Assembly: GCA_030690945.1 (NCBI GenBank)
Contig: JAUYFM010000015.1
Location: forward strand, 1-64,000
Length of the DNA stretch: 64,000 nucleotides
Origin: Smithellaceae bacterium
GTDB taxonomy: Bacteria; Desulfobacterota; Syntrophia; Syntrophales; Smithellaceae
Direction of reading: 5' to 3'
Part shown: positions 541 to 647 of the stretch, piece by piece
How positions within the stretch are numbered: position 1 is the first letter of the stretch
How the letters are laid out: each line of letters opens with the position of its first letter
Position numbers and translations under genes: made by a program
The notes under the pieces: model-generated
What the model was told of the DNA's origin: nothing
The model's database searches: none
Seen by the model: the letters and a program-made list of their open reading frames with translations, nothing else

Positions 541-647
541 AACGTTGTTGTTAGGTTTGCCCCACGCTTGGATCCGAAAGGACTGGGACGGAAGGGAACC
601 TTAGAAGGAATGTTAAACCTCTCGTCTTGCGACAAGGGGTTTTTTTT
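541..647 (+). promoter_or_regulatory. Structured panC leader: bulged-A hairpin plus terminator/RBS hairpin (candidate pan-type riboregulator)
   Basis: Bases 553-575 pair with 580-601 in a long stem capped by a GAAA tetraloop (576-579) and broken by single or paired unpaired adenines at 564, 572, 588 and 592-593. An outer 6-bp stem (541-546 with 609-614) closes it. Directly after, 615-626 pairs with 631-642 (one C-A mismatch, TTGC loop) and runs into eight T residues at 640-647, ending at the panC ATG. The panC Shine-Dalgarno (AAGGGG 634-639) lies in the 3' arm, so this hairpin could terminate transcription and hide the ribosome-binding site. The published pan RNA motif sits before pantothenate genes, including in deltaproteobacteria, and features bulged adenines; whether this one fits its consensus is untested. 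No convincing promoter precedes base 541. Confidence 0.5.

Follow-up and report, generated by a model that had tools for sequence, protein, structure and literature searches.

A single-hairpin pan RNA and its predicted antiterminator in the panC leader of a Smithellaceae bacterium

The leader of the panC-panD operon in the window, a stretch of 64,000 nucleotides from the genome of a Smithellaceae bacterium (contig JAUYFM010000015.1 of assembly GCA_030690945.1), carries an element that comparison across leaders identifies as a pan RNA with one hairpin only, which corresponds to the second half of the tandem model of Rfam. This hairpin is likely to be the basis of a transcription attenuator, in which bound pan would act as an anti-antiterminator and panC-panD would be off with effector. 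The pan motif, described as a stem in which two bulged A's are conserved, lies upstream of panB, panC and panD genes and is known from Chloroflexi, Firmicutes and delta-Proteobacteria, with most copies in tandem, a wording that implies single copies too (Weinberg et al. 2010, PMC2864571). Within the literature that could be searched, we found no paper on a pan mechanism, ligand or effector beyond that study. What appears to be new here is a single-hairpin attenuator with a defined antiterminator together with a wider regulon. For a control RNA that has been an orphan since 2010, a compact leader of ~85 nt with a defined antiterminator offers a directly testable switch. The elements of the leader and operon, as annotated from sequence, folding and comparison, are:

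492 to 526, + strand: terminator of an upstream AtpI-like gene
529 to 534, + strand: promoter -35 element, TTGACA
549 to 557, + strand: extended -10 element, TG-T-TAGGTT
565 to 590, + strand: single pan hairpin
585 to 595, + strand: predicted antiterminator, 5' strand
615 to 647, + strand: intrinsic terminator
618 to 628, + strand: predicted antiterminator, 3' strand, coinciding with the terminator 5' arm (CCUCUCGUCUU)
634 to 639, + strand: panC Shine-Dalgarno (SD) sequence, AAGGGG
648 to 1514, + strand: panC, pantoate--beta-alanine ligase (PF02569, 363 bits; TIGR00018)
1545 to 1904, + strand: panD, aspartate 1-decarboxylase, second gene of the operon (PF02261, TIGR00223), with ahcY located after panC-panD

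The original prediction, made from the letters of the window, had drawn a bulged-adenine hairpin with a GAAA loop, and this hairpin is real at 565-590. Sequence and folding (CG-CUUGG-A-UCC-GAAA-GGA-CUGGG-A-CG) define two outer pairs (565-566/589-590), a 5-bp stem (567-571/583-587), bulged A572 and A588, and an upper stem (573-575/580-582) that closes the GAAA loop. Its folding energy is ordinary for a lone sequence (z = -1.91 for 535-665 and -0.54 for 563-648), and its reality rests on comparative evidence and not on the single-sequence fold. One such hairpin is found in 104 of the ~109 panC leaders of the order Syntrophales, nearly all with a terminator, and alignment of these related leaders revealed compensatory changes in its pairs. 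A set of 23 distinct hairpins without their loops showed pairing in 99% of cells and changes on both sides in 17 cells, compared with 4.4 +/- 2.6 after shuffling (0/500 as many); the set came partly from a scanner tolerating one mispair only and consequently favors paired cells. For the outermost pair, CG, GC, AU, UA and UG are all observed. Bulged A572 and A588 are invariant in the alignment of the order, and the outer G-C is near-invariant. So is the U.G wobble at the center of the 5-bp stem, which is present in 49/49 hairpins and also in the Rfam hairpin 2 consensus and in Listeria.

The relationship to pan is seen most directly in the cmscan alignment, where hairpin 2 of RF01749 fits 563-595 almost letter for letter, and its sequence (CCUgGAUC...GACcGGGACaGAaGG), including the U.G wobble in the 5-bp stem, is present in the window. 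A search of the window at the Rfam cut-off returned no match, and the E-value search scored RF01749 at 22.7 bits, below the gathering cut-off of 36.2. The low score arises because RF01749 joins two unlike bulged-A hairpins in tandem and its hairpin 1 is forced onto the terminator at 492-526, which lies outside the switch with the panC promoter right behind it. A score below the cut-off of a model that demands two hairpins does not overturn the pan reading. The suggestion that the leader holds a pan variant can therefore be kept as to kinship, given the fit of hairpin 2, and amended as to form: this is the standard hairpin in single copy, the tandem arrangement being absent from the window, where the predicted start falls at the single hairpin. 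Identity with the PyrR site (RF00515) was rejected as a forced alignment (29.4 bits against a cut-off of 54). Weak matches to other Rfam families, among them the L10 leader and ncr1175, were likewise rejected, being under cut-off and for the most part on the upstream terminator.

The single copy is the rule in this group. A second hairpin was found in none of the ~109 panC leaders of the order that were examined, and the same hairpin stands upstream of panB in 21/30 panB loci. We built a single-hairpin covariance model from 49 hairpins, the window included, so that its score of 45.7 bits for the window holds by construction. This model has exactly two good sites in the source genome, the panC leader and a DUF2520-panB operon on contig C58, and it matches 144/154 Syntrophales genomes in 52/53 genera and 200/395 genomes of the phylum (E <= 0.05 per genome, so that ~20 could be chance). 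The Rfam cut-off is passed by 9/155 genomes of the order, which carry the same single hairpin, and by 21/395 of the phylum; the single-hairpin model thus recovers ~10x more genomes of the phylum. The tandem model RF01749 is poorly suited to Desulfobacterota, and the hairpin itself is conserved near letter for letter across 52/53 genera of the order and half the phylum. The RF01749 matches above cut-off that we inspected (e.g., L003 and L358) consisted for the most part of a single hairpin, hairpin 1 of the model being aligned to unrelated sequence upstream. Note that statements on tandem pan rest here on Listeria and on one tandem-type leader of the order (L006).

Upstream of the hairpin, promoter elements are recurrent. 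An exact TTGACA lies 17-18 nt from TGnTA in 81/90 panC leaders of the order, compared with 0.2% in shuffles, and in the window the extended -10 follows the -35 by 17 nt. TGnTA at that distance occurs in 90/104 panC leaders but in only 14/312 control windows, and it is present in 22/22 panB-operon leaders. A simple sigma-70 scan called no promoter in the window because TAGGTT falls under its threshold. The predicted transcription start is ~563-564, right at the base of the pan hairpin. The concern raised earlier, that TTGACA would place the start inside the structure, is borne out insofar as the start is predicted beyond 560; the core hairpin at 565-590 nevertheless stays intact, and a start just before it does not overturn the reading.

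Downstream, the second hairpin and the eight T residues at the panC ATG were confirmed by sequence and folds. The stem 615-626/631-642 has 11 pairs and one C.A mismatch around a loop at 627-630, and the U-run (640-647) abuts ATG 648. A terminator with U-run follows pan in 194/208 leaders, mostly within ~20-50 nt. The SD had also been placed correctly in the 3' arm of this hairpin, an arrangement that recurs in 10/12 leaders of the genus and clearly in 20/103 of the order; in the order's other leaders the SD lies behind the U-run (52/103) or its position is unclear (31/103). Given these proportions, dual control of transcription and translation is predicted to be mainly a trait of the window's genus, while the predicted transcription attenuation is general.

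The original prediction saw a riboswitch-like expression platform in these two hairpins. Mutually exclusive structures are indeed supported by comparison across leaders, but the element that makes the leader a switch, the antiterminator, had been missed. Its 5' strand (585-595) comprises the end of pan and the conserved flank GAAGG, and in the window it can form ten pairs and one A.C mismatch with 618-628. The terminator 5' arm reads CCUCYCGUC before panC and CCUUCCG-like before the panB operon in the order, and CCUUCUG in many other groups, and these arms are complementary to the pan end and flank, GACGGAAGG. In 188 leaders, the native duplex has a mean of -13.4 kcal/mol compared with -12.5 when partners are permuted among leaders (0/5000 as good), an effect that is significant but small and in which counts overstate independence because the leaders are kin. 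Shuffling either strand brings the duplex to about -8.2 to -9.0 kcal/mol (n=188). Furthermore, the terminator 5' arm is better conserved than the 3' arm (0.43 vs 1.02 bits per position), as expected for an arm with a second partner.

Clade swaps point the same way. One family has a GGGG-type flank and a CCCC-type arm with native energies of -9.4 to -14.0, and exchanging partners between this family and the CCUUCUG group yields -7.7 and -5.2. Both strands are altered together in L366 (GAGACCAGAA/UUCUGGUCUU, -24.0), and the tandem-type leader L006 has the strands AGGGUAG/CUAUCCU (-19.9). The minimum-energy fold contains the antiterminator in 88/103 leaders before the 3' arm is transcribed, and pan plus terminator in 83/103 once that arm is present. 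The antiterminator competes with a bulged A and two outer pairs, which are the most conserved part of pan. Taken alone, the duplex in the window does not surpass its shuffles, of which 22% are as good; the panB-operon leader of the source genome has a weak antiterminator only (-7.0). In the pre-terminator fold, forcing pan is on average slightly more stable than blocking its 5' strand, so that the default state is not certain. An early antiterminator candidate pairing 555-560 with 615-620 was discarded, 555-560 being the -10 region of the promoter.

The hairpin, promoter, terminator, antiterminator complementarity, SD position and gene association are thus supported by comparison, and together they suggest the following course of events. 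The RNA would begin at ~563-564, with pan as the first structure formed. Without effector, 585-595 would pair with 618-628 once that arm has been transcribed. This antiterminator would open the base of pan (A588 and the outer C-G pairs), prevent the terminator and expose the SD, leaving panC-panD on. An effector bound to the bulged-A hairpin would instead keep the base shut, so that 618-628 would pair with 631-642; the terminator would then form and cover the SD, and the operon would be off. We infer an effector that would signal that the pantothenate/CoA pathway is satisfied, and an off-with-effector direction. In two members of the window's genus (G060 and G064) pan has been lost at both panC and panB with promoters kept, as would follow if a single signal acted through the two sites. 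The panC leaders of these two genomes (L378 and L379) keep promoter and terminator and share a different stretch, GTCCAnGCAGGCCCGGACAAAACTGGAC, in place of pan; this stretch was not found elsewhere in the family and matched no Rfam family.

The effector is probably a protein rather than a metabolite, since the only invariant unpaired bases are two A's and the loop is free. The same attenuator could respond instead to direct binding of a small molecule by the 26-nt hairpin, which would then be a very small riboswitch; candidates are pantothenate, pantoate, ketopantoate and CoA species. One hairpin suffices in Desulfobacterota, position and targets fit a feedback switch, and the bulged A's, U.G wobble and outer G-C are near-invariant, yet we regard this as rather unlikely, given just two conserved unpaired bases beside a free loop and the view that the tandem copies of other bacteria form a site for a dimeric protein (PMC2864571).

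A reversed switch, in which effector binding promotes read-through, for instance through a stabilized antiterminator or a blocked terminator, would draw on the near-equal energies of pan-forced and pan-blocked folds before the terminator is complete, the direction of control being itself part of our interpretation. We judge it improbable because the most conserved bases of pan are those lost in the antiterminator, and binding to pan should accordingly oppose that structure. It is more doubtful still that the leader is unregulated, with a 5' hairpin that stabilizes the message and a leaky terminator giving a constant level of output: the ordinary single-sequence folding energy would agree with this, but near-letter conservation in 52/53 genera and half of the phylum, the specific gene association and the loss of pan from panC and panB together in G060 and G064 would not. 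Finally, the outer 6-bp stem from 553 that had been proposed to close the structure appears in the minimum-energy fold of 535-665, but such an extended fold is hardly credible, since the stem overlaps the -10 box upstream of the predicted start and would be untranscribed promoter DNA, and its 5' half is unconserved in most relatives.

The proposed anti-antiterminator has a close parallel in pyr leaders, where PyrR binds an upstream hairpin and prevents the antiterminator so that the terminator forms. The logic is alike, and the hairpin and target genes differ from those of the PyrR site. RAT elements, bound by dimeric proteins of the BglG/LicT/SacY type, are also bulged hairpins of ~30 nt before a terminator. 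RAT, however, overlaps the terminator and is itself the antiterminator, whereas pan lies ~25 nt upstream and would oppose a separate antiterminator. Compared with RF01749 pan, the window shares the bulged-A stem and the position before pan genes, and differs in its single hairpin at the transcription start, its sub-cut-off score and its predicted terminator-based output with antiterminator. In the tandem pan of Listeria (L275, 603-705; 64.3 bits), hairpin 2 has GACGAAAAGGAG as its conserved 3' flank, and these bases are the panB SD itself; no terminator intervenes. The output that the same conserved flank bases of pan serve thus seems to be SD-based in some cases and terminator-based in others.

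Loci sampled across the phylum extend the set of genes under pan. Directly downstream of pan in 60/60 loci was a pantothenate gene (panB/C/D operons), hxlB or the gene of an aldehyde:ferredoxin oxidoreductase (AOR). Targets include panB, panC, panD, DUF2520-panB, and panB followed by panE (L395). In L270, pan precedes an operon of AOR, ThiS-like, panB, panC and panD genes; L269 has a related arrangement, with pan before an AOR gene with panB, and AOR was also observed in L181 and L220. In eight genomes of three families (L266, L267, L268, L271, L272, L384, L385 and L386), pan stands before a 6-phospho-3-hexuloisomerase (PHI)-like gene (TIGR03127) followed by a hexulose-6-phosphate synthase (HPS)/RraA fusion.

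Among seven genomes that have this PHI/HPS-RraA operon or belong to the same genus, panB (PF02548) was found in 0/7 and panC in 6/7. The absence of panB suggests its non-orthologous replacement. We tentatively propose, as a possibility and on chemical reasoning, that pan marks a ketopantoate-to-pantothenate regulon in which the PHI-like and HPS/RraA proteins would make ketopantoate without tetrahydrofolate, the RraA-like aldolase domain joining 2-oxoisovalerate with formaldehyde that is released from hexulose 6-phosphate. Our literature search found nothing that links hexulose-6-phosphate synthase with ketopantoate. Genes related to formaldehyde and aldehydes appear as co-regulated members of the enlarged regulon, which also hints at a possible PanB substitute not previously known. 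In L266, a 2-dehydropantoate 2-reductase (panE-like) gene follows the PHI/HPS-RraA operon on the same strand.

The second pan of the source genome (L002, L203) lies outside the window at C58:26394-26433, with a terminator, before an operon of a Rossmann/DUF2520 gene and panB. An Rfam match on this contig first seemed to be chance, and a real pan hairpin is present there on the strand encoding the DUF2520-panB operon. A ketopantoate-reductase-like function is possible for the DUF2520 protein, although the genome has an ApbA_C/PanE-type gene as well.
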